From Desulfomicrobium macestii (GTDB lineage: Bacteria; Desulfobacterota; Desulfovibrionia; Desulfovibrionales; Desulfomicrobiaceae): DNA of 64,000 bases. This document shows positions 16,232 through 38,918 of the stretch, piece by piece. A model generated the notes under the pieces. It had not been told where the DNA came from and ran no database searches. It saw only the letters and a program-made list of their open reading frames with translations. Each line of letters begins with the position of its first letter. The first letter of the stretch is position 1. The stretch covers positions 1 through 64,000 of the forward strand of contig NZ_JADBGG010000001.1 in assembly GCF_014873765.1 (NCBI RefSeq), given 5' to 3'. The position numbers were made by a program, and so were the translations under genes.

Positions 16232-16632
16232 GATTCCACCTCCTGCATTTCCAGACAGTCATGGGGGCAGAATTCCACGCAGTTGCCGCAGTGGATGCAG
16301 ACATAGGGCCTGCCCTCGCGATCCTGGGCGATGGCGTCCACCGGGCAGGCGGCGACGCACTTGCCACACTGGATGCAGAGTTTCTTCTGCTGGGTGACTC
16401 CGCCGCCCTTGCGCTGCTTGAGGCTGCCCGTGGGGCAGGCCGCCGCGCAGGGGGCAGGGTTGCAGGCCAGACAGACCTTGGCCAGAAAGCCGGTGGAAAG
16501 GCCGCCGGAGGACAGAATGCGGATGCCGGCATTTTCCCAGGACAGACATTTGTGGACCACGCGGGCGCATGCCAAGGAGCATGAATGGCAACCGATGCAT
16601 CGGTCCATGCGGGTCGCGACGAGTTGTTTCAT
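16228..16632 (-). CDS. 4Fe-4S polyferredoxin, AOR electron partner
   Basis: A 134-residue iron-sulfur protein of the HycB/DmsB-like type. Four cysteine groups are visible: CIGCHSCSLAC near residue 12, CLACNPAPCAAACP near 55, CIQCGKCVAACP near 86 and CIHCGNCVEFCP near 112. Together these would hold about four 4Fe-4S clusters. It is the likely electron acceptor of the downstream AOR, with which it overlaps by 4 bases. The ATG at 16632 (AGGAAA 6 bases upstream) opens at the conserved MKQLVATRMDRCIGC start. Confidence 0.93.
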   Translation of the reverse strand: MKQLVATRMDRCIGCHSCSLACARVVHKCLSWENAGIRILSSGGLSTGFLAKVCLACNPAPCAAACPTGSLKQRKGGGVTQQKKLCIQCGKCVAACPVDAIAQDREGRPYVCIHCGNCVEFCPHDCLEMQEVES

Positions 16633-16761
16633 AAGTGCTTTCCTGTGAAAGGGGTTCCAAAAAAATAAAGGTATGTGTCTTTGGCGCGATTGTGAAGGGG
16701 TGAGCGGGTGGTTTACAAGCCGGGACAAACGTGAAAGCGAGAAGCGGCACAGGAGGTGAAC

Positions 16762-17079
16762 GTGGCGGAACGTGTTTTTTCCATCGTGACCAGACCGGAT
16801 ACGGGACTGGAACTTTTCGAGATCATTCAGGATCATGTCCGCGAACTGCATGGGCGCGGCATGGCCAGAACAGTGGGCTACGAGGTCATGAGCAACGGCC
16901 GGGTCATCCTCTTGAAGGTCCGGGGCCCGGAGGAAGATGTCATGCCTTCGGACGAAACCCTGGAGTCCGTGCTGGACGACGCTTTCGTGGCGCGGCTTGA
17001 AGCCCTGGCCCAGGAACTGGTTGACGGATTTCATGTGCCGTCTTTTGCCCACTGCGCTTCGGAGTCGGGTGAAGATTGA
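16762..17079 (+). CDS. Hypothetical protein, divergent from aor operon
   Basis: A 105-residue soluble protein I do not recognise. It has no cysteine cluster, membrane segment or signal peptide except a lone Cys near the C-terminus. The body is alpha/beta with a repeated acidic pattern (PDTGLELFEIIQDHVRELHGRG, then VILLKVRGPEEDV). I chose the GTG at 16762 because AGGAGG ends 5 bases upstream; the GTG at 16756 would overlap that site. It is transcribed divergently from the aor-ferredoxin operon and ends at a strong terminator. Confidence 0.7.
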   Translation: MAERVFSIVTRPDTGLELFEIIQDHVRELHGRGMARTVGYEVMSNGRVILLKVRGPEEDVMPSDETLESVLDDAFVARLEALAQELVDGFHVPSFAHCASESGED

Positions 17080-20948: not shown

Positions 20949-21656
20949 CTACTGGGGCTTCTTGGGATCCTCAAGACTCAGGAAGGACAACTCGTCGTCA
21001 TCTGACTTGCCCGAGGTCTTTTCCGGGGAATCGGTCCCGAAATCAAGGAGTATTTCTGTCTCCGGGGAAAATGAAGGCTTTTTGGCCGCAGAGGACTTGG
21101 AGCGTGGTTCATCATCCAGGGGTGCGAGCATTTCTTCGAGTTCCGGAATGAAAAGATCTTCGCGCTTGGGTTTGCTTGGAGCCGGAACCTGCGGGGCGGG
21201 CGGAGCGTCGAAGGAGGCGCTGAAGTCAAGCTCGACCATGTCTTCGGCAGGGAGCGTGTCCAGAAACAGATCTTCTTCCGGCTTGGGCGTCGGCGCTTTT
21301 TGCGCGGGAGCCGCTTCCCTGACCGGGACCTCGGTCATGGTGAAATCCAGATCCGGAAAGTTCGAGACGTCGATGTCGGTATTTTTTGCGGCGGCCGCGG
21401 CGGGTGGTGCGGCCAGATAGTCCCCGGAGGCGGCGCCTGTGTCGTTTGCTTGCGCATGGAGTTCGGTTTTCTGCGGTTTTGCGGAAAAATCGGGCTCGGG
21501 CTGTTGTGCGGCGGGTTCCTGCTTCAGCCAGTTGACTCCCGAGGCGGAGACCCAGTTCAGGTAAAGAGCCTTGCGGGATTCTTCCCAGTCTGCTCCGCAC
21601 TTGGGGCATGCGCTGACGTGGTCGAAGGAGTGGAATTTACATTTTTTGCAGTACAT
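20949..21656 (-). CDS. Zinc-ribbon protein with long low-complexity tail
   Basis: A 235-residue protein starting MYCKKCKFHSFDHVSACPKC, a C-x2-C...C-x2-C zinc ribbon in residues 3-20. A short conserved helix (ADWEESRKALYLNWV) follows. The rest is a Pro/Ala/Glu/Asp-rich low-complexity region that is probably disordered, with repeated short acidic patches such as DLDFTMTE, VELDFSASF and ILLDFGTD. This looks like a zinc ribbon tethered to a linear-motif tail. Function is unknown. The start is fixed by the ribbon. Confidence 0.78.
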   Translation of the reverse strand: MYCKKCKFHSFDHVSACPKCGADWEESRKALYLNWVSASGVNWLKQEPAAQQPEPDFSAKPQKTELHAQANDTGAASGDYLAAPPAAAAAKNTDIDVSNFPDLDFTMTEVPVREAAPAQKAPTPKPEEDLFLDTLPAEDMVELDFSASFDAPPAPQVPAPSKPKREDLFIPELEEMLAPLDDEPRSKSSAAKKPSFSPETEILLDFGTDSPEKTSGKSDDDELSFLSLEDPKKPQ

Positions 21657-22566: not shown

Positions 22567-25215
22567 TCAGGCCTTGTTTTTTGCATCCATCATCGCGTGA
22601 AGCTGATTCAGGATGCGTTTTTTATAGAATTGGACCACGTCTTCCTTGTTCATGATCATGTCCAGCTGCCTGGTGTGGATGAGGATGTGTCCCAGGATTT
22701 CAAGATGATTCTCGATGAATTTCTGGTCGCAGTCGTCCAGCCGGGCGAAAAGCGCGTCTTCGCGCACTCTGGTCCGGAAGTTGAATTCGTCGAGTATTTC
22801 TCCGACGAACTTCGCCCTGCGAACCTTGCGCTGGTGATCCGCAGCTCCGCCCTTGAACTGGAATCGGATGTAGTTTTCACGCGGTCTTGGCCCGGCCAGT
22901 GCCTCCACGGACGTGAAGTGATAGCCGAACCGCGACTGCAGGTTGCAGAAGTGTTTCGAGATCATGAAATAATTTCTTTCCGAGAACTGGGACGCCATGG
23001 CCGGTTCCAGGTTCCTGTTGGTCGCGGACTGGAAGAGCACCGACATGAAGCCCTTGCAGTCGATGCACGGGGGGCCATCCCAGGGATAGGCCACGATGCC
23101 GCGCCACAGCGCGAGCATGGGAACGGAGGTGATCTTGTCCAGCGGGATCATCTTGTCGCCGGTATCGCTGACAAATCCGTCCTCGAGATTGATGATCCAC
23201 CATTGCATGGGCACGATGGTCTTGAGCTGTTTGCTCGACCTGGGAGAAAAATTGTGGTCGCGGCCGAAACTGAACATCTCCTGCACGGATTTTTCATGGC
23301 AGAAGCGGGTGATGTCGTGCAGCGTCTTACAGTTGGCCGGAGTGAAGTCGAGCCCGTCGGGGTCCAGAAGGTTCAGGGGGATGATGTGGCGGTTGACGCG
23401 CTGCAGCGTCTGGAAGACCGGGCTTCCTGCCATCATGTTCGGCCGCTGTGGCTTGCGGTCCAGGAGGGTTTCCTGGAGTCCGGCGTAGACCGCGCAGTTG
23501 TCGGCGTCGAGGGTGATTTCCTGGCCGGTTTCAAGGATGCTTGTGGCTGACGGGACGCCGAACAGGCCTGGGACCTTGAATTCCCTAGCCACGTTGGCCA
23601 GATGGCCGGCGACGCTGCCCTGCTCGGTGATGACGCCCTGGCAGCGGTTCAGGACGGCGGCCCTCTTGGGCGCGGCCTCCACGCAGACCAGGATGGCGTT
23701 GTCGGGCAGCACGAGGATGTCCACGTCCTTGCGGACGATGTGCACCACGCCGTGGGCTGTACCCGCACTGGCGGTCTGGCCTTCATGCACCAGGGGAGTC
23801 ACCCCCGGGAGCAGCTCCGAAGCGGACTGATCCTGGCGAACTTCCAGCGGTCGTGTCTGCAGGAGGACGAGCCTTCCCTCCGGGGAATAGGCCCATTCGA
23901 TATCCTGGGGGATGTCGTAATGCTTTTCTATGCGGACAGCCATGGTCGCGAGGTCCATGATCTGGGGGTCGCTCAGGGTCGGTTGCTCGCAGAGCGCCGG
24001 ATCGACCGATACCCGGCAGACGCCTTCAGCGGCCGAACAGACCAGCGACGATTCCTTGCGCGGCACCTTTCTTTCAATAATTCGCGGCTGAGGTTCCTTT
24101 TCCACGATGAATTCGTCGGTGGTCGCAGTACCGTCGACCACGCCTTTGGCAACTCCCCAGGCGGAAGTGATGCGGACATGGGCACCCACGCCGTTCAGCG
24201 GGTTGGCCGTGTAGGCGACACCTCCGGCCTGCGAGGTGACCATGCCCAGACACCCGACGCACATCAGCACGTCATCGTCCCGGATGCCGAGCATGTAGCG
24301 GTAGGTCATGGCGTGAGCGGAATATTTGCTGGCAATGATTTCCTTGTAGCCATCGACAAGGCTGTCCCGGTCAAGATTCAGAAGGGATCTGTGCTGGCCG
24401 GCAAAGGATGCTCCGGCGCTGTCTTCGCCCAGGGCGCTCGAGCGCAGCGCCACGCGGACATTGGACCCTTCGCGTTCACAGAGTCTGTCGTAGGCACCGA
24501 GAATCGCGCTTTCGAGCTCGGGTGGAACCTCGGCTGCGAGGATCATGCCCCGGATCTTGGCGCACATTTCCAGCAGGGCGATGGGCTGATCCGTCTGCGG
24601 TTCTTCGTCCGGTTCGGGCGCTTGGGCGGCCCCGGCCGCGAAATGGGAGGCCATGGGGTGGCCAAGTACGAGGCAGTTGATTTCGTCCCAGAGACCAGAG
24701 TGCTGCATGAAGGTCATGTAGGCTTGGGCGGTGATGGCGAATCCGTCAGGGACCGGCACCTGCAGGGCATTGCGCAGCTCACCCAGGTTGGCCATCTTGC
24801 CGCCCACGTCGTCGATGTTGCGAGCCGTGATGCGATCCAGGTCGAGAATCAGGTCATTGCGGCGGGCGGTCTGGCGCAGGGAGAGTTCCTGCTGGATATT
24901 CTCCTGGATGGAGCGCATGGCGTCCCGCAGTCCGAGATACTTGCCCGGGGCCAGAAACAGGAGGTTTTCAACGATGGAAAAAACCTTGGCCGTGGCTCCG
25001 GTGACCCGCGACCTGAGGAAGTGCATGCCGAAATGCCGATGCCCCAGGGCCGCGCTTTCGAGGTCGGTCATGATGTCCAGGGCGGTGTTGTTGGCCGAGA
25101 GGAGCCGTCGAAAGGCCTGATATCTGGCCTTGAACTCGTCATCCTGTCCGCTGTCTTCCTCTTGCGGGGGCGGGGTAGGGGAAAAAAAGTTTCGGACGCG
25201 CTGCATCAAACTCAT
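22567..25215 (-). CDS. PEP/pyruvate-dikinase-like protein B (ATP-grasp + phosphohistidine domain)
   Basis: An 882-residue protein related to PEP synthase, with a different acceptor end. Residues 1-150 are a helical domain shared with its paralog. An ATP-grasp domain follows from about 150 to 450, with VGGKMANLGELR, VALRSSALGEDS, SFAGQHRS and LLQTRPLE motifs. The swivelling phosphohistidine domain, about 490-590, contains GSVAGHLANVAREF, where the His aligns with the phosphorylated His of PEP synthase (T-x-H-A-A-x2-A-R). After that the pyruvate-binding TIM barrel is absent. Instead there is a ~290-residue domain with NYIRFQFKGGAAD that I do not recognise. It therefore probably phosphorylates an unknown partner. 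Confidence 0.83.
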   Translation of the reverse strand: MSLMQRVRNFFSPTPPPQEEDSGQDDEFKARYQAFRRLLSANNTALDIMTDLESAALGHRHFGMHFLRSRVTGATAKVFSIVENLLFLAPGKYLGLRDAMRSIQENIQQELSLRQTARRNDLILDLDRITARNIDDVGGKMANLGELRNALQVPVPDGFAITAQAYMTFMQHSGLWDEINCLVLGHPMASHFAAGAAQAPEPDEEPQTDQPIALLEMCAKIRGMILAAEVPPELESAILGAYDRLCEREGSNVRVALRSSALGEDSAGASFAGQHRSLLNLDRDSLVDGYKEIIASKYSAHAMTYRYMLGIRDDDVLMCVGCLGMVTSQAGGVAYTANPLNGVGAHVRITSAWGVAKGVVDGTATTDEFIVEKEPQPRIIERKVPRKESSLVCSAAEGVCRVSVDPALCEQPTLSDPQIMDLATMAVRIEKHYDIPQDIEWAYSPEGRLVLLQTRPLEVRQDQSASELLPGVTPLVHEGQTASAGTAHGVVHIVRKDVDILVLPDNAILVCVEAAPKRAAVLNRCQGVITEQGSVAGHLANVAREFKVPGLFGVPSATSILETGQEITLDADNCAVYAGLQETLLDRKPQRPNMMAGSPVFQTLQRVNRHIIPLNLLDPDGLDFTPANCKTLHDITRFCHEKSVQEMFSFGRDHNFSPRSSKQLKTIVPMQWWIINLEDGFVSDTGDKMIPLDKITSVPMLALWRGIVAYPWDGPPCIDCKGFMSVLFQSATNRNLEPAMASQFSERNYFMISKHFCNLQSRFGYHFTSVEALAGPRPRENYIRFQFKGGAADHQRKVRRAKFVGEILDEFNFRTRVREDALFARLDDCDQKFIENHLEILGHILIHTRQLDMIMNKEDVVQFYKKRILNQLHAMMDAKNKA

Positions 25216-25361
25216 TCGTGCTCCATGCCGGGGTTCCCGGTGGCTGTATACCTATTGCAGGGAACGTTCGGTCAATCTCGTTGTCTTCTGACACAAAAGA
25301 AGCCCGGCCTGCAACGTTGGCGGACGGCCAGTCCCGCCAGGGGGACAGGGCAGGGAAGCGT

Positions 25362-27923
25362 TCAGTATCGAGGAAAGGAGTGGCCACCCTTGAAAAATTC
25401 ATCGATTTTTCGGGAGACCTCCTCGTCATCGTCGAGGCGCAGATCGAGGCTGCGGATTGATGCCAACAGTCTCCCAAGGGTGGTCAGCCGGTCCAGAAAA
25501 CGGCTTTCGTCATATTTGCGGATTTCCGCCTTGAGCGCGTCGCCGTTTTGGCTGACGCGGAATCCGAGCCGGCGCAGGATGCCGGCCAGGAGCGTGGCGC
25601 GGCGAACACGCTGAACGTATTCGGCGGCGCCGCCCTTGAAGGAGAAGGTGATGTAGTTGTCGTTGATGACCGGCCCGGCATAGGCGTCTATCGTGGCGAA
25701 GTGGTTGCCGAGCCGTCCGCTGAAATTGACGTAACTTCTTGATACGACGGCGTAACTCGCGGCCTCCGGGATGGCGCCGTCCTGGCCGCCAGCCACTTCG
25801 GGATGTGTCATTCCGTTCAGGAGTGCCTTCAGGGGCTCGCAGAGGAGTTCTTCTGTGCCGACTGTGGTGCCGCGCTCACGCGGCACGACGCCATCGCCCA
25901 GGTCGTAGAGGAAAATCTTGAAAGGCAACCCGGTGCGCAGTTCGTGGGCAGCGCTCTGCGCGTGCGGGAGTTCGTCCGAAAGCCGGAACATCTCGTGCAT
26001 GGCCACTTCATGGCAGAAGCGGATGATGTCGTGCAGGGTTTGGCATCCCTCGGGCGTGAAATTTGGCATCTGCGGGTCGACCAGATTCAGAGGGATGATG
26101 AACTTCAGCGCCTCCTGCAGGGCCTTGTAGACGGGACTGCCCTTCATGAGATTGACGGGTCTTCGTTCCGAGAGGATTTCCTGGACCCGGCCTGCGTAGA
26201 CAACCCCGTTGGTTGCGTCGAGGGTGACTTCCGTCCCGTGTGCAAGAAGATGGGTTGCGCGGCCCACATCCACGAGCGTCGGGATGCCGAATTCGCGAGC
26301 CACGGAGGCCATGTGTCCCGTGGCGCTGCCGATGTCCGTGATGATGCCGGCGACCTTGCCCATGGCGGCCACATAGGCCGGCGATGTCTGTCTTGCGACC
26401 AGGATTGCACCTTTTGGTATGTCATCGAGGGCGTGATCGGACTGCACGGAATAGACCATGCCTGAAGCCATCCCAAGGGCCGCCGGTTGGCCGCCGCACA
26501 GGAGCGGGGTCCGACCGGGTACGAACTCGCAGCATTCGGCCCGGTCGGTTCCCTCGGCACGCATCAGCGGCCTGGACTGCAGGACGAAGAGGCGGTCTTC
26601 ATGGTCGAGGGACCACTCCACGTCCTGGGGCATGCCGTAGTGTGCTTCGAGTCGCAGGCCGTATTCGACCAGGGTACGGACCTGATCGCCTGACAGGCAG
26701 GATCGTTTCCGGTCTTCGTCGGGCACTTGCCTTGAGACGATACCACCCTGGGGCAGAATGGTGAAGGCCGAGGTTTTGTCTCCTGTCTCGGCGGTGACGG
26801 TTGTTCGGTCCGTGCGCCGGATGCGCCAGAAGTCAACATGCGAGGATCCGTCGACGACGCTCACCCCGAGTCCCCAGGCTGCCGAGAGAAGCACATCGTC
26901 GCTGTGGGCGGAGTTTGGATCAATGGTGTAGAGCACGCCGCTGGCCTTGGCCTGAACCATGTTCAGGACCAGAACACTCATCATCACGTCCTGCTCCGAA
27001 TAGCCTTTGGAACGACGGTAGAAAACGGCCCGGGCGGTGAAGGCGCTGGCTACCACGGCGCTCCAGGCCCGCGGGAGGGCGAAGGGGGTGGCGCCAAGAA
27101 CGGTCGCGTGCTGGCCGGCGAAAGAAGCATCGGAATCCTCGCAGACTGCAGATGAACGCACGGCCAGACGCACGTCGGGGCCGAACCTGGACACCATGCC
27201 TCGCGCCTGCTCCTGCAGTGCCTTGTCCAGGTCAGGGGGCAGAGGCGCAATCATGATTCTTTCGCTGGCTTTGGCGCAAATCCGCTCCAGGGCGCCTATG
27301 TCCGTGATGTCGATTCCGACAAGTTGGTGCCGGAAAGTTTCGAGAATCCCGGTATGCCCAAGGAAAAGGGCTGCTGCCGAAGCCGTCACGGCGAAGCCCG
27401 ACGGCGTCGGCAGGCCGACACGGTTGCGGACCTCGCCGAGGTTCGCGGCCTTGCCACCCACTTCGTCCAGGTTTTCAAGAGAGATTGCATCAAGCGGCAG
27501 GACGAGGTCCTGGCCGTCGAATGTCCGCTCGCGCAGGAGGGCGCGCAGGGCCGCTCCGCCTACATGCTGCAAGCGCCCGAAGAGAGTTGTGAATCGCCCC
27601 TTGGCCAGTGCGTTCATGTCTTCAATCAGGGAACAGCCGTGCTCGAGCAGTCCTCGCATGTGCACCAACGCATCTTCCTGGGTGAAGGAGCGGCCTTCAT
27701 AGACCATGCGCTCGAGCCAGGCCATTTCCTCGAGGATGTGGTTGTTGCTGGCCAGCAGACTTTTGAAGAAACGATACTTTCGTTTCATCTCCGGATGGGC
27801 GTCGGGAGCTGCGAGGTTCCTGCCGGTCGTCGTCTTCACGGCAGCGACCGCCGGAAGATCCGAAGGCGCTCGGCCAGCCGGATCGGTTGCGGGGGGGTCG
27901 GTCTGCGCATGAACCAGTTGCAT
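25362..27923 (-). CDS. PEP/pyruvate-dikinase-like protein A (paralog)
   Basis: An 853-residue paralog of the next gene downstream, with the same order: N-terminal helical domain (LLASNNHILEEMAWLE), ATP-grasp (VGGKAANLGEVR, LAVRSSAVCEDS, SFAGQHAT, LQSRPL), phosphohistidine domain with GSATGHMASVAREFGIP retaining the phosphorylatable His, and the same unusual C-terminal domain (NYITFSFKGGAAEYVQRVRRA). It starts with a ~45-residue Pro/Ala-rich stretch that may be a linker or a start too far upstream. It lies 45 bases downstream of a histidine kinase gene, with its paralog 146 bases further on, so all three are likely co-transcribed. Confidence 0.83.
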   Translation of the reverse strand: MQLVHAQTDPPATDPAGRAPSDLPAVAAVKTTTGRNLAAPDAHPEMKRKYRFFKSLLASNNHILEEMAWLERMVYEGRSFTQEDALVHMRGLLEHGCSLIEDMNALAKGRFTTLFGRLQHVGGAALRALLRERTFDGQDLVLPLDAISLENLDEVGGKAANLGEVRNRVGLPTPSGFAVTASAAALFLGHTGILETFRHQLVGIDITDIGALERICAKASERIMIAPLPPDLDKALQEQARGMVSRFGPDVRLAVRSSAVCEDSDASFAGQHATVLGATPFALPRAWSAVVASAFTARAVFYRRSKGYSEQDVMMSVLVLNMVQAKASGVLYTIDPNSAHSDDVLLSAAWGLGVSVVDGSSHVDFWRIRRTDRTTVTAETGDKTSAFTILPQGGIVSRQVPDEDRKRSCLSGDQVRTLVEYGLRLEAHYGMPQDVEWSLDHEDRLFVLQSRPLMRAEGTDRAECCEFVPGRTPLLCGGQPAALGMASGMVYSVQSDHALDDIPKGAILVARQTSPAYVAAMGKVAGIITDIGSATGHMASVAREFGIPTLVDVGRATHLLAHGTEVTLDATNGVVYAGRVQEILSERRPVNLMKGSPVYKALQEALKFIIPLNLVDPQMPNFTPEGCQTLHDIIRFCHEVAMHEMFRLSDELPHAQSAAHELRTGLPFKIFLYDLGDGVVPRERGTTVGTEELLCEPLKALLNGMTHPEVAGGQDGAIPEAASYAVVSRSYVNFSGRLGNHFATIDAYAGPVINDNYITFSFKGGAAEYVQRVRRATLLAGILRRLGFRVSQNGDALKAEIRKYDESRFLDRLTTLGRLLASIRSLDLRLDDDEEVSRKIDEFFKGGHSFPRY

Positions 27924-27968: not shown

Positions 27969-29624
27969 TCAGTTGATGAACGGTCGTGCTTCAAGGGGAA
28001 GCTCGACTGTTATGGTAGTGCCCTGCCCGGCAGTGCTGTCAACGGAAATCCTTCCGCCGATACGCTGCAGGATGCCATGGGAAATGGATAGCCCGAGGCC
28101 TGCGCCCTTGCCGGGTGGCTTGGTGGTGAAGAAGGGATCGAAGATCTTGTCGAGGTTCTCGCGGGGGATGCCGAAACCCGTGTCGCGAACTTGCAGACGG
28201 ACGCCGCCTCCTTCCGAAGGGGCGGTGGAAATGGTGATGGGTCCGCCTTCGGGCATGGCGTCCATGGAGTTGTTGATCAGGTTGATAAGCAGCTGGCGCA
28301 GGAGGGCGGGTTCGCTGAGAATGACGGGCAGCCGCGAGGCGAGTTCCTCTCGGATTTCAATGTTTCGCTGCGATGCTTCACGGCGTCTCAAGGCGGCAAC
28401 GTCGGTGACGAGAGTGTTCATTTCCACGTCGCGAATCGTGCCGTCGGTCTTGCCGCCAAAGCTGAGGAGTTTGTGAGTGATCTCGCGGCTGCGAGCCGTT
28501 TGAGTCACGATCTGGCGAAGGGATTCCCTGAGTTCTCCGGCGTCGGGATGGTCTTTGAAAGAATCACGCCGGAGCAGGTCCTGCATCCAGCCCGCTTCCT
28601 CTCCGATGATGGCCAGGGGGTTGTTGACTTCGTGGGCGATGCCCACTCCCAGTTGACTGATGGCGTCGAGCTTCTGAACCTGCAGTTCACACTCCCGCAG
28701 ACGGCCAGAGTCCGTCTCCATCTCTTCCTGGAGCGTCGTGAACTTCTTTACCGCCCGCAGGGACGCCGCGCCCAGGACAAGCAGGCAGATGACGGCCAAG
28801 GCCGCGAAGCGTGTCATGGTGTGGTGCAGGGTCTCGGAAATCTCCCTGTTGTCGCGTTGGGTTACGAGCAGCCAGCCGGGAAGGTTGTCCAGGGGGAGCG
28901 CGACGTAAAGCAGAGTGGTGCCGGACCATTCGCGCCGGGCAATCTTGGTGACACCGGAGTCCTTAGTGACCAGAGAGCCGTCGACACGGTCCAGGATGCC
29001 TCCGTGCAGGACGGCCCTGGTCTGCAGGATTCCCGCATCGTTGACGAGGAACGTCTCGCCGGTGCGTCCGAGGCGCTCGCGGTCGAGCAGGGAACTGAAG
29101 AGGAAGGCGTTGACGGAAAGTCTGACGGTTGCCGAAGACAGGTCCGTCCCTTCGCCTATGGCGATGAAAAAGCGCGGTGTTCCGTCCTTGCCGGCCTGAA
29201 CATCGGTGACGAGGAGACCGCTTTCGGTCCGTGAGGCTGGCGGCAGTTCCTGCGGCAAGGGTTGGCCGGCCATGACCCTGCTGCCAGTTCCGGAATCCAT
29301 CACGTCCATGCCGTCAATCCAGTCCATGGAGTGGCCAAGGGAAGTGAAGGCGTGCTGCAGTTCCTCCGCGGACATCTTACCGGAACGTTGAAGCAGCATC
29401 CCCAAAAGAGCCCCGGCCGAATCCATGCTGTACTCTACCCTGGCCCTTCCTGCTTCCGCGACGACGGCGAGTTGCGATTCGGCGGCACGGCTGTGTTCGG
29501 TGTCAACACTTTTGAGTGCGTAGACCAGAACGCATACGGCGACGAGAAAGGCCGGGGCCACGGTGAACAGGACGATCGCGTTTTTGAGCCGTTTTCTGTG
29601 CATTTCCAGACGTTGAGGAGTCAT
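27969..29624 (-). CDS. Sensor histidine kinase with periplasmic sensor domain
   Basis: A 551-residue membrane kinase. TM1 is near residues 15-37. A periplasmic Cache-like domain (about 40-270) follows, then TM2 near 275-295 (FAALAVICLLVLGAASLRAV). A coiled segment leads to an NtrB-type kinase core: the H-box GIAHEVNNPLAII with the phosphorylatable His, LINNSMDAMPEGG (N-box), DTGFGIPRENLDKIFDPFFTTK and GAGLGLSISHGI (G-boxes). There is no receiver or PAS domain. I chose the ATG at 29624 because the longer opening adds a proline-rich stretch that reads through the terminator at 29680. It is the first gene of the dikinase-like cluster. Confidence 0.92.
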   Translation of the reverse strand: MTPQRLEMHRKRLKNAIVLFTVAPAFLVAVCVLVYALKSVDTEHSRAAESQLAVVAEAGRARVEYSMDSAGALLGMLLQRSGKMSAEELQHAFTSLGHSMDWIDGMDVMDSGTGSRVMAGQPLPQELPPASRTESGLLVTDVQAGKDGTPRFFIAIGEGTDLSSATVRLSVNAFLFSSLLDRERLGRTGETFLVNDAGILQTRAVLHGGILDRVDGSLVTKDSGVTKIARREWSGTTLLYVALPLDNLPGWLLVTQRDNREISETLHHTMTRFAALAVICLLVLGAASLRAVKKFTTLQEEMETDSGRLRECELQVQKLDAISQLGVGIAHEVNNPLAIIGEEAGWMQDLLRRDSFKDHPDAGELRESLRQIVTQTARSREITHKLLSFGGKTDGTIRDVEMNTLVTDVAALRRREASQRNIEIREELASRLPVILSEPALLRQLLINLINNSMDAMPEGGPITISTAPSEGGGVRLQVRDTGFGIPRENLDKIFDPFFTTKPPGKGAGLGLSISHGILQRIGGRISVDSTAGQGTTITVELPLEARPFIN

Positions 29625-29679
29625 CTGCCCACCGTGCCGTTTGGCGGTTTGGGTTGTTGCTGCGGGTCGTTTTTGGAAA

Positions 29680-29711
29680 AAAACCGGGAAGACGGGTACC
29701 TTCCCGGTTTT
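29680..29711 (-). terminator. Rho-independent terminator after permease 1
   Basis: 12-bp stem AAAACCGGGAAG/CTTCCCGGTTTT, followed on the minus strand by T residues; it lies 36 bases beyond the permease stop. Confidence 0.85.
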
Positions 29712-29746
29712 GTTTAGGATTGAAGAAACGGTTTCGCAACCATGAA

Positions 29747-31213
29747 TCAGTAGAAGCCGATCAGGGGCCAATACACCAGTACGCTGATGGTCGCGACGAG
29801 AAGCAGGGTCAGACACCACGGGACCGCGACCTTGATGAACTCAGCCTGCGAGAAATATCCCGTGCTGTAGGCGATGATCGTCGGAGGGCAACCAATGACG
29901 AGCATGATGAACGAGGTGGTCATGGGGGATAGCATGGCCACGGCCTTTGGAGAGAGGTTCATCATTTCCGCCATGGGCAGGGTGATGGGCAAGGTCAGGG
30001 CCACGGCCGCGGAGTTGCTCATCAGGCTGGACAGGAATGAGCCGAAAAAGCCGATTCCGTAGAAGACCGCAAACGAAGGCTGGCCTTCAAGCAGCGGCAG
30101 ACAGACCTCAGCCAGGTATTTGCCCGCTCCGGATGTGAGCATGGCTCCGCCCAAGGATACACCGGCACCGAAGACGATCCAGGACTCCCAGGGGAATTTG
30201 TCGCAGATGGTCTTGAATGAAATGAACTTTGGGCCGCAAAATCCGGCCAGGGCCAGGGCGGCGGGGACGCTGTAGTGTAGTCCGGTCAGGTCCGAGAATG
30301 TCCACAGCAGGAAGGTCACTCCGAAGATGATGGTAACGCCGAGTTCTTTTCCCCGCATGGAAGGCATTTTTTCGATTCTCACCTCGGCCGGGAGTTCTTT
30401 TTCCTTGGGCCGGAAAATCATCCACAGGACGCCCCAAGTGGTGACGGCGGTCAGGATGCAGATGGGGAACTGGATGACGATGTACTCCAGGAAGCCGATG
30501 GTCGCCTCGTGACCCGCGTCTCGCGTGAAGTTTTGCAGGATTTCGAGGGCCAGAGGGTTGCGGCCGCCGCCCAGAAGGGTGCCGAAACCGCCGGCCGAGG
30601 AGGCTAATGGAATGAGAATGATGAAGAATTTTGAAAGATTGTTGCTTTTTTGCGGGGTGATTCCCATGGCCATGAAGACCGGAACCAGCGCAAAGATCAT
30701 GATGACCGTGACTGTCGCGTCGTGAAAGACGGTGGCCAGCATGGTGCACCCGACGGCCAGCACGAAGCTAAGTTTCTTGACCCCTGTTCCGGCCATCTTG
30801 AAAATGTAATACATGATGCGGTTAGCCAGGCCGACCTCGTTCAAGACCACGCCGAACATGACGATCATGAGCACGAACATGACCGCAGGACTGGCGAATG
30901 GCGCCCAGGCGTCGGTCGGCTTCTGGATGCCGAACAGGATGAGCCCCGCGGCGGCGCACAGGGCCGAGACGCCGATGGGTATGGCCTCCGTGACCCAGAG
31001 GAGGACGACGGTCAGGAGCAGGGCCAAAAATTTGTGCCCGTCGACGGGCAGATTGGCCGGGGTAGGCAGAAGATAAATTCCGAGGCCGATGGACAGGGAG
31101 ATGAGGGTCTTGATGATGATCGTACGGCCCGACTGCTCGGACGTTTCCGGGTGTTCTTCGATGAGGAGTTCATCTTCGGGGTGATTTCTGTAATCGATAT
31201 TTTCGTGGCTCAT
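29747..31213 (-). CDS. DASS (SLC13) family anion permease 1
   Basis: A 488-residue inner-membrane carrier of the divalent anion:sodium symporter superfamily, with about 11-12 helices. Family hallmarks are WVTEAIPIGVSAL, the first re-entrant region (SAGGFGTLLGGGRNPLALEIL) and the second (SNSAAVALTLPITLPMAEMM). The first loop reads GGGRNP, where characterised carriers have a Ser-Asn-Thr type motif, so the substrate may differ; sulfate or a dicarboxylate is possible. The ATG at 31213 (GGAG 7 bases upstream) overlaps the stop of the CBS gene by one base, which implies translational coupling to it. Confidence 0.88.
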   Translation of the reverse strand: MSHENIDYRNHPEDELLIEEHPETSEQSGRTIIIKTLISLSIGLGIYLLPTPANLPVDGHKFLALLLTVVLLWVTEAIPIGVSALCAAAGLILFGIQKPTDAWAPFASPAVMFVLMIVMFGVVLNEVGLANRIMYYIFKMAGTGVKKLSFVLAVGCTMLATVFHDATVTVIMIFALVPVFMAMGITPQKSNNLSKFFIILIPLASSAGGFGTLLGGGRNPLALEILQNFTRDAGHEATIGFLEYIVIQFPICILTAVTTWGVLWMIFRPKEKELPAEVRIEKMPSMRGKELGVTIIFGVTFLLWTFSDLTGLHYSVPAALALAGFCGPKFISFKTICDKFPWESWIVFGAGVSLGGAMLTSGAGKYLAEVCLPLLEGQPSFAVFYGIGFFGSFLSSLMSNSAAVALTLPITLPMAEMMNLSPKAVAMLSPMTTSFIMLVIGCPPTIIAYSTGYFSQAEFIKVAVPWCLTLLLVATISVLVYWPLIGFY

Positions 31214-31809
31214 TATGGCACTCCATGAAGATCTTTTTTCATTATGGGTGAAATTGCGCATGCGTCCTTCATGGTTGCCGATAAATGCGCGTACACGTCC
31301 GAAAAGGCGAGCATGCCGACAAGGCGCCCACCGTCGGTGACAAACAGGGAATCATGACGATTCATGACGAATCGGTGCAGGGCCTTGTCAAGGCTGTCAG
31401 TCACCATGACGGTTTGGCCCGCAGAGGGGCTGCTGACGAAATTCCGGATGAGAATCCCCGATGCGTCGGTACAGAGTTCGTGCAGTGGGGTCGTCCACAG
31501 TGCAGCCTGGTCCAGCGCACTTCCGATCATCTTGTCGTAGGAATGGCTTCGGGAGTATTCTCCGACATTGACCTTCAGTCTTGAATAGCGGGGTTCGAGG
31601 GCCATGAGCAGGTCCATGGGAGAAACCTTGCCCACGATGTGTCCCTTCCCGTCATGGACGAGAAGGATGCATGTGCTTTTTTTTCCGCTCTGAAAATCAA
31701 TGCGGCATTGTTCCAGCGCTCTCAGCGCGGCTCCGAACGTTTCCTCCTGAGAAATCCGGGGGAAATGCTCGGCCGGGATCATCAGTTCTTTCACGGTCAT
31801 TGGCTCCAT
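31213..31809 (-). CDS. CBS-domain pair protein 1
   Basis: A 198-residue soluble protein with two CBS motifs. The first (about 5-75) starts TVKELMIPAEHFPRISQEET and ends GKVSPMDLLMALEP; the second (about 115-185) has LIRNFVSS and DSLFVTDGGRLVGMLAFSDVY. CBS pairs bind adenine nucleotides and act as regulatory modules. AAGGAG lies 6 bases before the ATG. The one-base overlap with permease 1 suggests it gates or senses state for that transporter (inference). Confidence 0.88.
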   Translation of the reverse strand: MEPMTVKELMIPAEHFPRISQEETFGAALRALEQCRIDFQSGKKSTCILLVHDGKGHIVGKVSPMDLLMALEPRYSRLKVNVGEYSRSHSYDKMIGSALDQAALWTTPLHELCTDASGILIRNFVSSPSAGQTVMVTDSLDKALHRFVMNRHDSLFVTDGGRLVGMLAFSDVYAHLSATMKDACAISPIMKKDLHGVP

Positions 31810-32586: not shown

Positions 32587-33033
32587 TTAGAAGCCCAGGC
32601 TTTTGTGCATCTTGTCGAGTATGGCCTTTTCTTCCGCCCTGCGCAGGCGTTCGTCGCGATCTCTTTTGATCTTGTAGGCCTCCTGAATTTTTACCACGAG
32701 ATATTCGTATTCATATGGTTTCATGAGATAATCGTAGGCACCCAAGCGCATGCCTTCCACGGCCGAGGATACGTCGCCGTGACCGGTGAGCATGATAACT
32801 TCGACGCCGATGTGTCTTCCACGAATCTCCGACAGCGTCTCGATGCCGCTGAGACCCGGCATCTGGATGTCAAGAATAACGATGTCGAATTTTTCCGCCG
32901 CAAGGCGGTCCAGGGCTTCCATGCCGCTGCTCGCACCGCTGACTTCGTAGCCAGTCTCCTGCAACCGCTTGGCCAGAGTTTCTCGAAACCTTTCTTCATC
33001 ATCAACCAGAAGCAATTTGGGCAAAAAATCCAT
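32587..33033 (-). CDS. Receiver-only response regulator 1
   Basis: A 148-residue CheY-like receiver without an output domain. It shows the acidic pair in LLLVDDEERF, the phospho-acceptor Asp in IVILDIQMPG, Thr in VIMLTGHGD and Lys in YLMKPYEYEY. A short charged helix (KIQEAYKIKRDRDERLRRAEEKA) follows. It is closely similar to receiver 2. The ATG at 33033 has AGGAGG 5 bases upstream. It is separated from the second receiver gene by about 300 bases with a terminator. Confidence 0.93.
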   Translation of the reverse strand: MDFLPKLLLVDDEERFRETLAKRLQETGYEVSGASSGMEALDRLAAEKFDIVILDIQMPGLSGIETLSEIRGRHIGVEVIMLTGHGDVSSAVEGMRLGAYDYLMKPYEYEYLVVKIQEAYKIKRDRDERLRRAEEKAILDKMHKSLGF

Positions 33034-33252
33034 TATTTCCTCCTCATGGAAGTGACACTGCATTGGTTCGGGTATGTTTATTGTTTGTGAATACCGTAAC
33101 AATGTTTTCATTTCAAGATATTCTCGCCGGTTCTCTGCAGAATCGCAATTGCCTGAATTAACATGGAGAGAGGATGCAAAGATGTCTCGAAACGTACATT
33201 GGTCTTCAGGCGTGCCAGACCTTTGGATGTCTTCCTTGGTTCTTCTGGTTGA

Positions 33253-33338: not shown

Positions 33339-33782
33339 CTAGACCCATCTTTTCTGCAGTTTATCCAGCAGGGCTTTTTCTTCTGCCCTGTGCAGCCTTT
33401 CGTCACGGTCTTTCTTGATTTTATAGGCTTCCTGGATCTTGACTACGAGGTACTCGTATTCACAGGGCTTCATCAGATAGTCAAAGGCACCGAGGCGCAT
33501 GCCTTCTACGGCCGAGGATACGTCACCGTGTCCTGTAAGCATGATCACTTCCACGCTAAGGTGCTTGGCGCGGATTTCAGCCAGGGTTTCGATGCCGCTT
33601 AGTCCCGGCATCCGGATGTCGAGTATGGCCACATCGAATTTGTTGGTGGAGAGCAGGTCCAGTGCTTCCATGCCGCTGGCGGCCTCGCTCACCTTGTATC
33701 CGGTTTCCGTCAGACGCTTGGCCAGCGTTTCGCGAAAACGGTCTTCATCGTCGATAAGAAGCAATCTTGGCAAATTTTCCAT
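33339..33782 (-). CDS. Receiver-only response regulator 2
   Basis: A 147-residue CheY-like receiver, a close paralog of receiver 1 with the same order of motifs: LLLIDDEDRF, VAILDIRMPG (phospho-acceptor Asp), VIMLTGHGD and YLMKPCEYEY, then the same charged C-terminal helix. No DNA-binding domain follows. AAGGAGG lies 5 bases before the ATG. It is the first receiver downstream of permease 2, and the two receiver genes look like a tandem duplication separated by a terminator. Confidence 0.93.
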   Translation of the reverse strand: MENLPRLLLIDDEDRFRETLAKRLTETGYKVSEAASGMEALDLLSTNKFDVAILDIRMPGLSGIETLAEIRAKHLSVEVIMLTGHGDVSSAVEGMRLGAFDYLMKPCEYEYLVVKIQEAYKIKKDRDERLHRAEEKALLDKLQKRWV

Positions 33783-33929: not shown

Positions 33930-35396
33930 TTAGTTGAATCCGATCATCGGCCAGTAAGTCAGTGCCGCGGCTACGCAGATGGCCAGCAGGGTGAGGCACC
34001 AGGGGATGGCTACCTTGGAGAACTCGACCTGGGTGAAGTATCCGGTGCTGTAAGCGATGATTGTGGGAGGACAACCAATGACGAGCATGATGAAGGAGGT
34101 GGTCATGGGGGCGAGAAGACCGACGGTCTCGACGCTCATGTTCATCATGCTGGCCATGGGTAGGGTCACGGGCAGGCTCAGGGCCACGGCCGCCGAGTTG
34201 CTCATCATGCTCGACAGGGCCGAGCCAAAGAGGCCGATGCCGTAATAGGTGACGAAGGGGGAGTGCCCCTGGAGCAGCGGCAGGCAGACTTCGGCCAGGT
34301 ACTTGCCAAGGCCGCTGGAGAGCATGGCCGCGCCCAGGGAGACGCCGGAGCCGAAGACGATCCAGGATTCCCACGGGAACTTGTCACAGATGGTCTTGAA
34401 AGAGACCCAGCCGGGAGCACAGAAGCCTGCAAGGGCCAGTGCCGCGACCACGCTGACATGCCAGCCGGTCAGGTCGCCGGCGAACCACATGATGAATGCG
34501 GCGGAGAAGATTGCTGCCACACCCTTTTCAGCGCTGCTCATGGGCGGCATGGACTCGATCTTCACGGATGCGGGAAGTTCCTTTTCCTTGGGTCGGAAGT
34601 ACAGGAAACAGATGGCCCAGGTCGCTATGGCGGTGAAGATGGAGACCGGGAATTCGACGATGGCGTACTTCAGGAAGCCGATTTTGACCGCGACGCCCGT
34701 GGCCTCCAGAAGGTACTTCTGGGTGATGTCCACGGCCAGGGCGCAGCGGCCGCCGCCGAGCATGGTGCCGAAGCCGCCGGCCGATGCCGCCAGAGGAATG
34801 AGGATGATGAAGAATTTGCTCAGGTTGTTGCTCTTCTTCGGCGTGATGCCCATGCTCTGGAAGAGGGGTACAATGGCGAAGAGCATGATGATGGTGATGG
34901 TCGCGTCATGAAAGAGGGTCGAGAGCAGGGTGCTGCTTATGGCTATGAAGAAGCTGAGCTGCTTCACCTTTGTTCCCGCGAATTTCAGGATAAAGAAAAG
35001 CAGGCGTTTGGCCAGGCCGACCTCGTTCAGGATGACGCCGAACATGATGATCATCATGACGAACATGACGGTCCGGTTGGCGTATGGAGCCCAGGCCTGC
35101 GAACTGCCCGTAACCTTGAAAATGATCATGAGCGCCGTGGCCAGCAGGGCGGTAACGCCAATGGGAATGGCTTCGGATACCCATAGGAACACGATCGGGA
35201 GCAGGATGGCGCCCAGACGATGCGCTTCCACCGGGAGGGACTCCGGACGGGGCAGAAAGTAAATGAACAGAAAAAGACCAAGCGCGATGAGCAATTTGAT
35301 GATCATGGATTTGGATGACTGAGTCGGACCCTGGGGCTCTTCTTCGTGCATGAGGAGCTCATCTGGGGAAGTATCTCGCACGTCTTGTGCACTCAT
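33930..35396 (-). CDS. DASS (SLC13) family anion permease 2
   Basis: A 488-residue paralog of permease 1, with the same length and motif order: WVSEAIPIGVTALLAT, the re-entrant loop SAGGFGTMLGGGRCALAVDIT, and SNSAAVALSLPVTLPMASMM. The first loop is again GGGR where Ser-Asn-Thr is expected, and the residue after it differs (RCAL against RNPL in permease 1). The two carriers may thus differ in substrate. AAGGAG lies 7 bases before the ATG. It is 67 bases downstream of CBS gene 2, in the same order as the first set. Confidence 0.88.
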   Translation of the reverse strand: MSAQDVRDTSPDELLMHEEEPQGPTQSSKSMIIKLLIALGLFLFIYFLPRPESLPVEAHRLGAILLPIVFLWVSEAIPIGVTALLATALMIIFKVTGSSQAWAPYANRTVMFVMMIIMFGVILNEVGLAKRLLFFILKFAGTKVKQLSFFIAISSTLLSTLFHDATITIIMLFAIVPLFQSMGITPKKSNNLSKFFIILIPLAASAGGFGTMLGGGRCALAVDITQKYLLEATGVAVKIGFLKYAIVEFPVSIFTAIATWAICFLYFRPKEKELPASVKIESMPPMSSAEKGVAAIFSAAFIMWFAGDLTGWHVSVVAALALAGFCAPGWVSFKTICDKFPWESWIVFGSGVSLGAAMLSSGLGKYLAEVCLPLLQGHSPFVTYYGIGLFGSALSSMMSNSAAVALSLPVTLPMASMMNMSVETVGLLAPMTTSFIMLVIGCPPTIIAYSTGYFTQVEFSKVAIPWCLTLLAICVAAALTYWPMIGFN

Positions 35397-35463: not shown

Positions 35464-36018
35464 TCAGAGGCCGCACGATTCTTTGATTCTGCGGCCAATT
35501 TCCTTGTACACGTCGGAAAAGCGCAACACGCCAATGAGCTTCTTGCCGTCCATGACGAAAAGAGAGTCATGCTTGAACATGACAAAGCGGTGGAAGGCAT
35601 TGTTCAGGTTCGCGTCCTGGTCGATGATCTGGGATGATTTTGGCGGCTGGATGAAATCCTTGACCAGGATATCCTTGGCAATGGCGCAGAGGTCGTCCAG
35701 GGGTTTGGCCCAAAGGGTGGTCTGCTCTTTCATGGGCTGGATCACGTAGCTGAACTTTTCAACGTACACGCTGCTCTGTTCGTCGACCAGTTTTTCGTAG
35801 TCCGGTTCGAGTCCTCGGACCACGTCGAGGGGTGAGAGCTTGCCGACGACCTTGTTTTCACTGTCGGTCACCAGCAGGATGCGCTGTTCGCGCTTGCCGG
35901 AAAGGTATTCCTCGTTGGCCCTCTCCAGAGCCATGACCGCTCCTGAGAAAGTTGCCGTGTCCGATATCCTGGGAAATTTGGCTATGGGGACCATGAAATC
36001 TTTTACGGATGCTTCCAT
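35464..36018 (-). CDS. CBS-domain pair protein 2
   Basis: A 184-residue protein with two CBS motifs: ASVKDFMVPIAKFPRISDTATF at the start (first CBS ending GKLSPLDVVRGLEP near 85) and LVKDFIQPP...DSLFVMDGKKLIGVLRFSDVY at the end. It resembles CBS protein 1 in layout. The ATG at 36018 was chosen at the conserved start, with AAGGAG 9 bases upstream. A longer opening exists, but its extra residues are not typical. It is the first gene of the leftward operon and faces a divergent sigma-54 activator. Confidence 0.86.
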   Translation of the reverse strand: MEASVKDFMVPIAKFPRISDTATFSGAVMALERANEEYLSGKREQRILLVTDSENKVVGKLSPLDVVRGLEPDYEKLVDEQSSVYVEKFSYVIQPMKEQTTLWAKPLDDLCAIAKDILVKDFIQPPKSSQIIDQDANLNNAFHRFVMFKHDSLFVMDGKKLIGVLRFSDVYKEIGRRIKESCGL

Positions 36019-36136
36019 TATCCATCGCTCCTTGGGGTTGGGCCGGAATTGATGATTGTGCACCATCTTCGCCTCCGACACAGGTTTATTGCCGATTTCA
36101 AGTCGTTAAATAATCTTGCAAACACTGTGGAGTGAT

Positions 36137-36269: not shown

Positions 36270-36389
36270 GTAATTTTTGCTGTATATTGCTCTTTTTCTT
36301 CTTGAGCAAAGTGTACGGTGTCTGTTATCGGGAAGGAAAATTTGCGCGATTTGAGGCTGTTTCGGAAGGGGTGGAGAAATGGAGGAAGC

Positions 36390-38918
36390 ATGATCAAGCC
36401 GAAAGTAATTTTGGAATGGGCATCCCGGATGCGGCCCGGTGGACCTGTTCCAGCCAGGCGTAAACTCCGAACGCGTCTGCTCGTGACGCTTATCCCCACG
36501 TCTCTCATCGTGCTCGCGCTGATGGGATATGCAACGTATTGGGCGTCATCGGAATTTATCTCCCTCGCCCTTGAACGCAACTCACGGATTCATGCCGTTT
36601 CCACCGCCTATGCGGTGGAAACGTTGCTGGAGCGTTGCAAGCGGCAGCTTCTTTTTGCGGCCCGCAATCCCATGAGCGCGGAGGATATGGCCCGCTATTT
36701 AAGGGATATTCGGGAACTCGACGGCCTTGAGTTTGCGGAATTCGGCTTCATTCCCCTGCGTGAAGCAGATCCTGTTGTTTTTGTGAGTCGCGAGGGGAAA
36801 GAAATACGATTGACGCAGGATGAAGTGAACGGCATTCGGCCCGGTCCAGCGCTTCTGTATGCGCATGTTCGCGGTTTGAAAGCGGGTGAAGTGTGGCTGT
36901 CGGAGTTTAAAGAGGTGGAAACTCCCTATCCCAGTGCTGACAATCCGCGAGAACGCATGTCCTGTGTCGCGTTGCGTATGGTGACTCCCTATGTGGGTCC
37001 TGACGGAGAACTGGACGGGTACGCTTATCTTTCGCTTAACGCCAAGATGATCCGCAATGTGCTCTCTCTCTATGAGTCGTCCAATTCTCCCGTTTTCGCT
37101 TTCTCGCGCAATCCAAAGTTTCAGCGGTACACCTTTTTTTTCGATGTGGGGGGGTGGGTGCTTTTCCAGTCCGAATCGGAACAGGGTGACGATGCGCCTC
37201 TGCGTACCTTGAATATCCGGAAAACCTTGTCCGGGACTCTGGGCAGACCCGGTATGCCAGAGGCGTTCCGTCCCTCGGAGCGGAACGAAAATTATTGGCA
37301 GACCGTCGAGGATGTCCGCGATGGGCACAAGGACATTGTCCGGTCGCTCAATCGAGTGGAGTCCGCTTCGCCCTACAGTGACCATTTTCTTGCCTACGCT
37401 CCGGTACGCCTGCACCTGGCCCCGGATCAGGACGCAAGAATCATCGGCGGAATCGCCTACGAAGACCGCAGCGTGCTGGTCGACCTCGCAGGTTACAGGC
37501 ACATCGATGTCATGCTGATCATCAGCGCCATTTCCGTGCTGGTTCTGGTGCTGGCCATTGCTCTGGTGGCCAGGGGCACCACGCTGGGTCTGCAGGAACT
37601 TGCCTATGCGGTGAAGACTCTCACGGAAAAGGGAGAGTGGGAGGAAGTCCGTCTGATCGAGACGGGCTATGAGGCAGAGATGCTCAAGGATTCGATCAAT
37701 TCCATGATCAGGACACTGCAGGCGCAGTTTGAGGAGATCAAGTCAAAGGACCTGAAGATCGAGTCCGTGGCTTTGAAAGAACCGGCGGAACTGAGTATGG
37801 GGTCCTCCATATCCACATTGGACGCGGACTTTCCGGAACTTGTCGGTTCGGGGCCGCACATGAAGCAGATGAAACGCGTCATCATCAAGGCCAGCCAGGT
37901 CGAAGTGGACGTGCTTATCGAAGGCGAGACCGGTACGGGCAAGCAATTGGCCGCCGAAGCCGTTCATCGCCTGTCGTCCAGAAACGGCAAACCCTTCATC
38001 TCAATCAATTGCGGTGAACTGGACGAGAATCTCTTGCTCGATTCCCTGTTTGGTCACGTCAAAGGGGCGTTCACGGACGGTAAGGGGGACCGGCGCGGCG
38101 CTTTTCTGCAGGCCGATGGCGGGACGCTGTTTCTGGACGAGATTCAGTCCGCATCCATGAAGGTCCAGCAAGCCTTGTTGCGAGCTCTGTCCCTGCGCAA
38201 GATCAAGCCGCTGGGCAGCGACCAGGATGTGGACGTGAACGTGCGTCTTATCACGGCCACCAATGTCGATTTGAAGGCCCTGATCGGTGAAGGGAAGTTC
38301 CGTGAGGATCTCTATTACCGGCTCAAGGTCATTACCATCACAACCCCTCCGTTACGGGAGCAGCGGCAGAACATCCCGCTTTTGGCCATGCACTTCCTGA
38401 AAGAGGGGGAACACATGGCTGGAAGATCTGATCTCGCTCTTTCGCGCGGGGCCCTGAAAGCCCTTGTCTCCTATGATTGGCCAGGCAACATCCGCGAACT
38501 CAAGCATGTGATCATAACGGCGGCCGTGATGTCCGAGGGGCGCGTGATCCAGTCCGAGCAATTGGGCATCAACGGCAAGGCAAGAAATGAGGATGACGCA
38601 TTAAACCAGAGTGCGGATTCGTTTGTGCGGGAGAAAGGGGACGGTTTTGAAAATTCGTTTCCCGCAAGAACTGATAAAAAGAAACATGACACAGTATTGC
38701 CTTTGGATCTGAACCCCCGGCAGGTCATAGCATGCGAGTATGTACGGGGGCATGGGAGCATTTCGAGCAAGGACCTGCTCGATCTTCTCGATGGCGGCAT
38801 TTCAAAGAGAACCGCAAGCTATGACCTCCAGGACCTGGTCGGCCGCGGCCTGCTGGCAAGGATAGGTCGTGGTCCCTCGACGCGTTACGTGTGGCCCTCG
38901 GGCGGCGATTCGTCCTGA
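36390..38918 (+). CDS. Membrane-anchored sigma-54-dependent transcriptional activator
   Basis: An 842-residue activator with its own sensor. TM1 is near 28-50, with a periplasmic Cache-like region to about 365. TM2 is near 370-395, followed by a HAMP-like linker. The AAA+ domain, about 480-715, has Walker A GETGTGKQ, a GAFTDG loop where GAFTGA is usual, and Walker B TLFLDEIQ. The C-terminal ~60 residues (NPRQVIACEYVRGHGSISSKDLLDLL...TASYDLQDLVGRGLLARIG) resemble a winged-helix module rather than the Fis-type helix-turn-helix of most such activators. There is no receiver domain. The ATG at 36390 has GGAGG 4 bases upstream. Confidence 0.9.
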   Translation: MIKPKVILEWASRMRPGGPVPARRKLRTRLLVTLIPTSLIVLALMGYATYWASSEFISLALERNSRIHAVSTAYAVETLLERCKRQLLFAARNPMSAEDMARYLRDIRELDGLEFAEFGFIPLREADPVVFVSREGKEIRLTQDEVNGIRPGPALLYAHVRGLKAGEVWLSEFKEVETPYPSADNPRERMSCVALRMVTPYVGPDGELDGYAYLSLNAKMIRNVLSLYESSNSPVFAFSRNPKFQRYTFFFDVGGWVLFQSESEQGDDAPLRTLNIRKTLSGTLGRPGMPEAFRPSERNENYWQTVEDVRDGHKDIVRSLNRVESASPYSDHFLAYAPVRLHLAPDQDARIIGGIAYEDRSVLVDLAGYRHIDVMLIISAISVLVLVLAIALVARGTTLGLQELAYAVKTLTEKGEWEEVRLIETGYEAEMLKDSINSMIRTLQAQFEEIKSKDLKIESVALKEPAELSMGSSISTLDADFPELVGSGPHMKQMKRVIIKASQVEVDVLIEGETGTGKQLAAEAVHRLSSRNGKPFISINCGELDENLLLDSLFGHVKGAFTDGKGDRRGAFLQADGGTLFLDEIQSASMKVQQALLRALSLRKIKPLGSDQDVDVNVRLITATNVDLKALIGEGKFREDLYYRLKVITITTPPLREQRQNIPLLAMHFLKEGEHMAGRSDLALSRGALKALVSYDWPGNIRELKHVIITAAVMSEGRVIQSEQLGINGKARNEDDALNQSADSFVREKGDGFENSFPARTDKKKHDTVLPLDLNPRQVIACEYVRGHGSISSKDLLDLLDGGISKRTASYDLQDLVGRGLLARIGRGPSTRYVWPSGGDSS

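Follow-up and report, generated by a model that had tools for sequence, protein, structure and literature searches.

The window, the whole stretch of 64,000 nucleotides from Desulfomicrobium macestii analysed here (contig NZ_JADBGG010000001.1, positions 1 to 64,000), contains two neighbouring genes for dikinase-like proteins in which the TIM barrel of PEP synthase (PEPS; pyruvate, water dikinase) and PPDK is replaced by a domain of about 290 residues. The locus raises the question of what such a replacement domain may accept, and what a dikinase furnished with it may be used for. As judged from their sequences, the finding is real: both proteins belong to the PEPS/PPDK superfamily of dikinases and have an undescribed candidate acceptor domain.

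Domain architecture and relation to known dikinases

The two proteins (Table 1) can be aligned over nearly their full length, with 34% identity (E 5e-156). In each of them Pfam recognizes the ATP-grasp domain PPDK_N (PF01326; 7.8e-87 for the 882-aa and 2.2e-81 for the 853-aa protein) and the PEP-utilizers mobile domain (PF00391; 4.5e-16 and 2.2e-23, respectively), just as the initial annotation had read both domains from the bare sequence. For the barrel, PEP-utilizers_C (PF02896), neither protein gives a match, and the last ~290 residues of both are without any Pfam match; the 803-aa PEP synthase of the same genome, taken as positive control, displays all three domains, with PF02896 at 4.8e-64. 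The role of PEP synthase in this genome is thus taken by a separate conventional enzyme and not by the window proteins. Against the PEPS equivalog NF005057 they score 327-344 bits, compared to a cut-off of 598, and against TIGR01418 309-332 bits, compared to 739.75.

With PEP synthase and PPDK, the window proteins share the ATP-grasp domain and the swivel histidine, in the same order and with all core catalytic residues; they differ in that an unrelated domain of ~290 aa stands in place of the TIM barrel, and in their extra N-terminal helical domain. A likeness to rifampin phosphotransferase (RPH) had also been proposed, and this comparison stood in part. RPH and the two-component aryl dikinases HpeHI likewise combine ATP-grasp and swivel His with a non-barrel acceptor domain, so the differing acceptor domain is a valid parallel; the domain order, however, is that of PEPS and PPDK, and with the N-terminal helical domain included the window proteins consist of four parts, not three. 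RPH has its catalytic His domain at the C-terminus, behind the rifampin-binding domain (PMC4844700), and unlike this arrangement of ATP-grasp, acceptor and His, the His domain of the window proteins precedes the C-terminal domain (CTD). By sequence the acceptor domains showed no relation to each other: against the RPH model NF041857 the window proteins reach 197-243 bits, compared to a cut-off of 999. A further relative is VadK (Rv1127c) from Mycobacterium tuberculosis, a truncated PPDK relative with only the ATP-binding and His domains, which phosphorylates its own catalytic His and has a regulatory function (PMC13400623). VadK resembles the window proteins in being a PPDK relative without the barrel and with a reported regulatory role, and it differs from them in that they carry a dedicated CTD and have adjacent histidine kinase, receiver and permease genes.

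Table 1. Features of the dikinase locus, with positions in the window.
Feature	Position	Strand	Remarks
Subfamily-C dikinase-like protein	22567..25215	-	882 aa; helical N-terminal domain, ATP-grasp, phosphohistidine domain, novel CTD
N-terminal three-helix domain, 882-aa protein	24844..25152	-	aa 22-124; without convincing family or fold match
ATP-grasp PPDK_N, 882-aa protein	23821..24810	-	aa 136-465
Phosphohistidine swivel domain, 882-aa protein	23497..23706	-	aa 504-573
Codon of phospho-acceptor His538, 882-aa protein	23602..23604	-	in SVAGHLANVAREF; invariant 141/141
CTD in place of PEP/pyruvate barrel, 882-aa protein	22570..23442	-	aa 592-882
Subfamily-B dikinase-like protein	25362..27923	-	853 aa; architecture as in 882-aa protein
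N-terminal helical domain, 853-aa protein	27498..27797	-	approx. aa 43-142; from alignment of both proteins
ATP-grasp domain, 853-aa protein	26553..27467	-	aa 153-457
Phosphohistidine domain, 853-aa protein	26205..26420	-	aa 502-573; His537 in SATGHMASVAREF
CTD, 853-aa protein	25365..26156	-	aa 590-853
Sensor histidine kinase (HATPase_c)	27969..29819	-	ends 45 bp before subfamily-B dikinase
DASS/Na_sulph_symp anion symporter 2	29747..31261	-	overlaps histidine kinase gene
CBS-domain protein 2	31213..31809	-	Pfam
Single-domain response regulator 2	32587..33111	-	Pfam
Single-domain response regulator 1	33339..33782	-	Pfam
DASS/Na_sulph_symp anion symporter 1	33930..35396	-	Pfam, NCBIfam
CBS-domain protein 1	35464..36081	-	Pfam
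Sigma-54-dependent activator, divergent	36318..38918	+	candidate cluster regulator (putative role)

Conserved residues and the terminal domains

Conservation was assessed by aligning 141 distinct full-length proteins. The ATP-grasp active site, on which the reading as a dikinase depends, is complete: K140, R258, E264, D265, D438, E440, Q453 and R455 are all present in the 882-aa protein, and with the exception of K140 (140/141) they are invariant (141/141). The phosphorylatable histidine has been retained as claimed; GHLANVAREF and GHMASVAREF are the phospho-His motifs of the swivel domains in the window pair, and His538, R544 and E545 are found in all 141 homologues. The same ATP-grasp and swivel residues are present in the true PEP synthase of the genome, the exception being the GLGE motif, whose Glu is usually Lys in the dikinase family.

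In the CTD, the residues H633, D634, R637, H640, E641, H766, N781, G790 and R800 are conserved in 141/141 proteins and D852 in at least 98.5%, and the signature by which this ~290-residue domain had been recognized, NYIxFxFKGGAA, is largely conserved in the family. In the AlphaFold2 model (pLDDT 83, pTM 0.70), H633, R637, H640 and E641 fall on positions i, i+4, i+7 and i+8 of one predicted helix, which carries the HD..R..HE motif and is followed by a mixed alpha/beta region. The predicted fold is not a (beta-alpha)8 barrel, and an origin of the CTD from the barrel was rejected with an hhalign probability of 0.1% against the barrel of the genome's own PEPS; together with the missing PF02896 match, this upholds the claim that the TIM barrel is absent. 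Searches of Pfam and NCBIfam with the CTDs of 97 members returned only scattered weak matches. Against PDB sequences the best E value was 0.54, and the best Foldseek hit in the PDB had an E value of 0.039, with none at or below 0.001. VIA-align reached a best Z of 5.2 in the PDB, the listed rows covering mostly residues 85-269 and barely the first 85. Weak rows of VIA-align and Foldseek comprise red chlorophyll catabolite reductase, PcyA, coproporphyrinogen oxidase and T4 MotA, at 4-10% identity. With so little coverage of the first 85 residues, the lack of a significant match is weak evidence for a new fold.

The N-terminal region is indeed common to both proteins, and it is confidently predicted as a three-helix bundle (pLDDT 90), for which the fold search gave no significant match. 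A function as HPt-like phosphotransfer domain was considered and set aside, as the domain has no invariant residue and no conserved His. BLOC1_2 matched the domain in 23 of 83 members (best 5.6e-4), which is regarded as chance similarity among helical bundles.

Distribution, subfamilies and a kinase-less paralogue

With the CTD only as query, the family was found in 78 of 198 genomes sampled from the phylum, often with several copies per genome. A separate collection yielded 563 candidate stretches with relatives, and the best 80 of these 563 are labelled as Desulfobacterota, Deltaproteobacteria or unspecific MAGs. Loci labelled Desulfomicrobium share 84-86% CTD identity with the window. The CTD was found neither on the plasmids nor in the viral contigs searched, so that there is no sign in these of a link to mobile elements. 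In the phylogenetic tree three groups can be discerned, namely subfamily C (with the 882-aa protein, mostly beside a TauE permease), subfamily B (with the 853-aa protein) and a clade named DSP after the dual-specificity phosphatase. Subfamilies B and C occur as a pair in 8 examined loci, the window included, which speaks for an old partnership and not for a recent duplication. The window genome encodes five full-length paralogues, the window pair included, and one kinase-less form. A paralogue of 1046 aa (L014:7028-10168) has an extra C-terminal extension of roughly 200 aa past the CTD, without Pfam match.

The kinase-less form, a pseudokinase of 566 aa (L011:6350-8050; in the window genome G000:C1:189349-191046), keeps the N-terminal domain and the CTD, together with what is left of the first ATP-grasp half (PPDK_N E 1.8e-4, below the cut-off), and lacks the C-terminal half of ATP-grasp as well as the entire phosphohistidine domain. 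All 11 genomes sampled from the genus have an orthologue, with 51-96% identity to the copy in the window genome, and the pseudokinase therefore appears to be kept by selection. Its gene is located downstream of a TauE permease gene and, where the gene in between could be resolved, of one for a DVU0250-like membrane protein. Its CTD and the window CTD share 21% identity; each of the 11 copies has C in place of R637, M or L in place of H640, N in place of H766, K or G in place of N781, and G in place of D852, and D634, R762, R800 and C629 are retained. Because the phosphotransfer half and R637, H640, H766, N781 and D852 have been lost together, these residues are read as receiving or positioning the phosphoryl group, and the pattern suggests that the CTD site works together with phosphoryl transfer. 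The joint loss may in part reflect general drift, the 11 copies representing one evolutionary event in a CTD that has diverged overall.

Gene neighbourhood and the nitrate cluster

In the direction of transcription, the window cluster reads CBS, DASS, receiver, receiver, CBS, DASS, histidine kinase, dikinase B and dikinase C, with the divergent sigma-54 activator upstream. The intergenic distances are 45 bp between the histidine kinase and dikinase B and 146 bp between the two dikinases; a gap of 777 bp ahead of the second CBS gene would allow for more than one transcript. The CBS proteins seem to go with the symporters and not with the dikinases. The initial annotation had pointed to kinase and receiver genes as neighbours worth looking for, and within 5 kb of the dikinase in 94 loci these turned out to be frequent: a single-domain receiver occurs in 62 loci and a histidine kinase in 52, alongside a TauE permease in 49, an unnamed membrane protein of ~230 aa in 53 and DASS in 13. 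Among 80 dikinase genes with enough upstream sequence, 19 have a receiver gene directly upstream, 18 of these receivers being 119-178 aa long. Members of subfamily C are found beside TauE in some lineages and beside DASS in others, and the CTD invariants are the same.

Several other features of these loci deserve to be recorded. The CBS-DASS unit is present twice in the window cluster (36081-33930 and 31809-29747). The ~230-aa protein (L090:5551-6243, L048:5559-6251 and many loci) has an N-terminal hydrophobic segment and no Pfam match; its gene mostly adjoins TauE and is often directly upstream of the dikinase. A zinc-ribbon-like protein (YCKKCKFHSFDHVSACPKCGADWEE; window 20949-21656) is conserved downstream of dikinases in 6 loci. 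At positions 14486-17052 of the window, the sequence reads as an aldehyde ferredoxin oxidoreductase-like protein with an adjacent 4Fe-4S ferredoxin-like protein.

The DSP clade, to which the paralogue L012 of the window genome belongs, leads to a cluster with known phenotypes. Its gene order, TauE, DVU0250-like, PhnD/PtxB, histidine kinase, receiver, dikinase and DSP phosphatase, is complete in L179 and partial elsewhere; at L012 itself it runs PhnD-HK-RR-dikinase-DSP, with the TauE and DVU0250-like genes elsewhere in the genome. A DSP phosphatase with the motif HCRxGIGR adjoins the dikinase in 29 of 32 members of the clade. In L012, the dual-specificity phosphatase gene (L012:8728-9768; HCRHGIGR) overlaps the end of the dikinase gene by 4 bp. 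L012 and its orthologues share the gene order that Korte et al. list for DVU0251 to DVU0245 (PMC4001038), where DVU0246 is annotated with ATP-grasp and mobile domains. DVU0246 is annotated with 2235 bp (744 aa), compared to about 820 aa here, and from synteny it may carry the CTD. Korte et al. (2014) reported that transposon mutants in the permease, DVU0250, receiver and dikinase genes grew equally with and without 100 mM nitrate, that the phosphatase mutant was still inhibited by nitrate, and that a mutant in the phosphatase gene of D. alaskensis had positive fitness in nitrate; nitrate was proposed to enter via a leaky thiosulfate transporter (PMC4001038). Transferred across orthologues, these phenotypes would mean that the permease depends on receiver and dikinase for its function and that the phosphatase acts differently; the positive fitness of the D. 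alaskensis mutant and possible polar effects in the operon speak against this reading. The nitrate phenotypes concern a paralogous subfamily other than those of the window pair. The resemblance to the nitrate cluster (DVU0251-DVU0245 / Dde_0597-0605) thus lies in the gene order of L012 and its orthologues and in the domain annotation of DVU0246, whereas the window proteins are members of two other subfamilies and are encoded with DASS, CBS, receiver and histidine kinase genes, without TauE, PhnD or an adjacent DSP phosphatase.

Proposed mechanism and alternatives

As the invariant residues suggest, the ATP-grasp domain would pass a phosphoryl group from ATP to the swivel histidine, His538 or His537. 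The swivel domain would then bring it to the polar site of the CTD, with H633, R637, H640, H766, N781 and D852 next to D634, E641 and R800, and this site may either receive the phosphoryl group or hand it to a bound acceptor. From the gene neighbourhood and the mutants of the syntenic cluster, the dikinase would be under the control of the neighbouring histidine kinase and stand-alone receivers, such that uptake via the adjacent anion permease (DASS in the window, TauE-type in most relatives) would be switched on or supported, at the level of activity or of expression; in the DSP clade, the dual-specificity phosphatase would reverse the mark. That the window proteins are regulatory dikinases of the PEPS/PPDK superfamily, acting on anion uptake with a replaced acceptor half, is on these sequence-based grounds considered about evenly balanced. 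Three observations favour a regulatory role: different permease families are served by one subfamily, no signalling gene is a more common neighbour than the receivers without output domain, and a pseudokinase form is maintained beside a permease. More tentative, and rather doubtful as a whole, is the extended proposal that the CTD would be an undescribed phosphoryl-acceptor domain of new fold, with the protein serving as output for a two-component system in sulfate-reducing bacteria, in which histidine kinase and receiver act on a swivelling dikinase that gates anion permeases (hence the sensitivity to oxyanions such as nitrate), with pseudokinase and dual-specificity phosphatase as partners.

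Against the regulatory reading it must be held, by analogy, that the relatives with known acceptor domain, i.e., PEPS, PPDK, RPH and HpeHI, phosphorylate small molecules and not regulators. Small molecules are the substrates in every characterised relative that has an acceptor domain (PMC4844700, PMC12167813), and this, together with the permease genes among the commonest neighbours and the catalytic-looking invariant polar set of the CTD, argues for a metabolic dikinase whose CTD binds the imported anion, or a carboxylate or sulfonate derived from it, which would be phosphorylated at the expense of ATP (giving AMP and Pi) and so trapped or activated after uptake. We hold this to be unlikely, though it has to be taken seriously, in view of subfamily C with its TauE or DASS partners at unchanged CTD invariants, the frequent single-domain receivers and histidine kinases nearby, the pseudokinase maintained beside TauE, and the several paralogues per genome. 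The example of VadK, which autophosphorylates and regulates without any acceptor domain (PMC13400623), leads to yet another alternative, namely that the phospho-His state alone matters and that the CTD, as a protein-interaction module, reads the position of the swivel domain with no second transfer. Persistence of the N-terminal domain and CTD without the kinase in the pseudokinase would agree with it, but the polar invariants of the CTD are kept no less strictly than those of the kinase site, and some of them disappear along with the kinase; a catalytic or phosphate-binding site would explain this better, which renders such an autophosphorylating regulator quite improbable. The most conservative assignment would be a normal PEP synthase or PPDK whose barrel has diverged strongly. 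The NCBIfam PEPS models do match the N-terminal two thirds, and automatic annotation would presumably call the window proteins PEP/pyruvate-binding domain proteins, but the absent barrel by PF02896, hhalign and predicted fold, the 327 bits where 598 are required, and the complete PEPS elsewhere in the genome leave hardly any room for it.

Significance

How sulfate reducers control their anion uptake is little understood, and this control sets their sensitivity to the nitrate and perchlorate used against oil-field souring. Receivers without output domain need a partner, for which the widespread co-encoded dikinase, with the defined site in its CTD, is a candidate. If the regulatory reading is true, the PEPS/PPDK superfamily would gain a new acceptor domain, and a testable mechanism would be at hand for the unexplained nitrate cluster DVU0251-0245.
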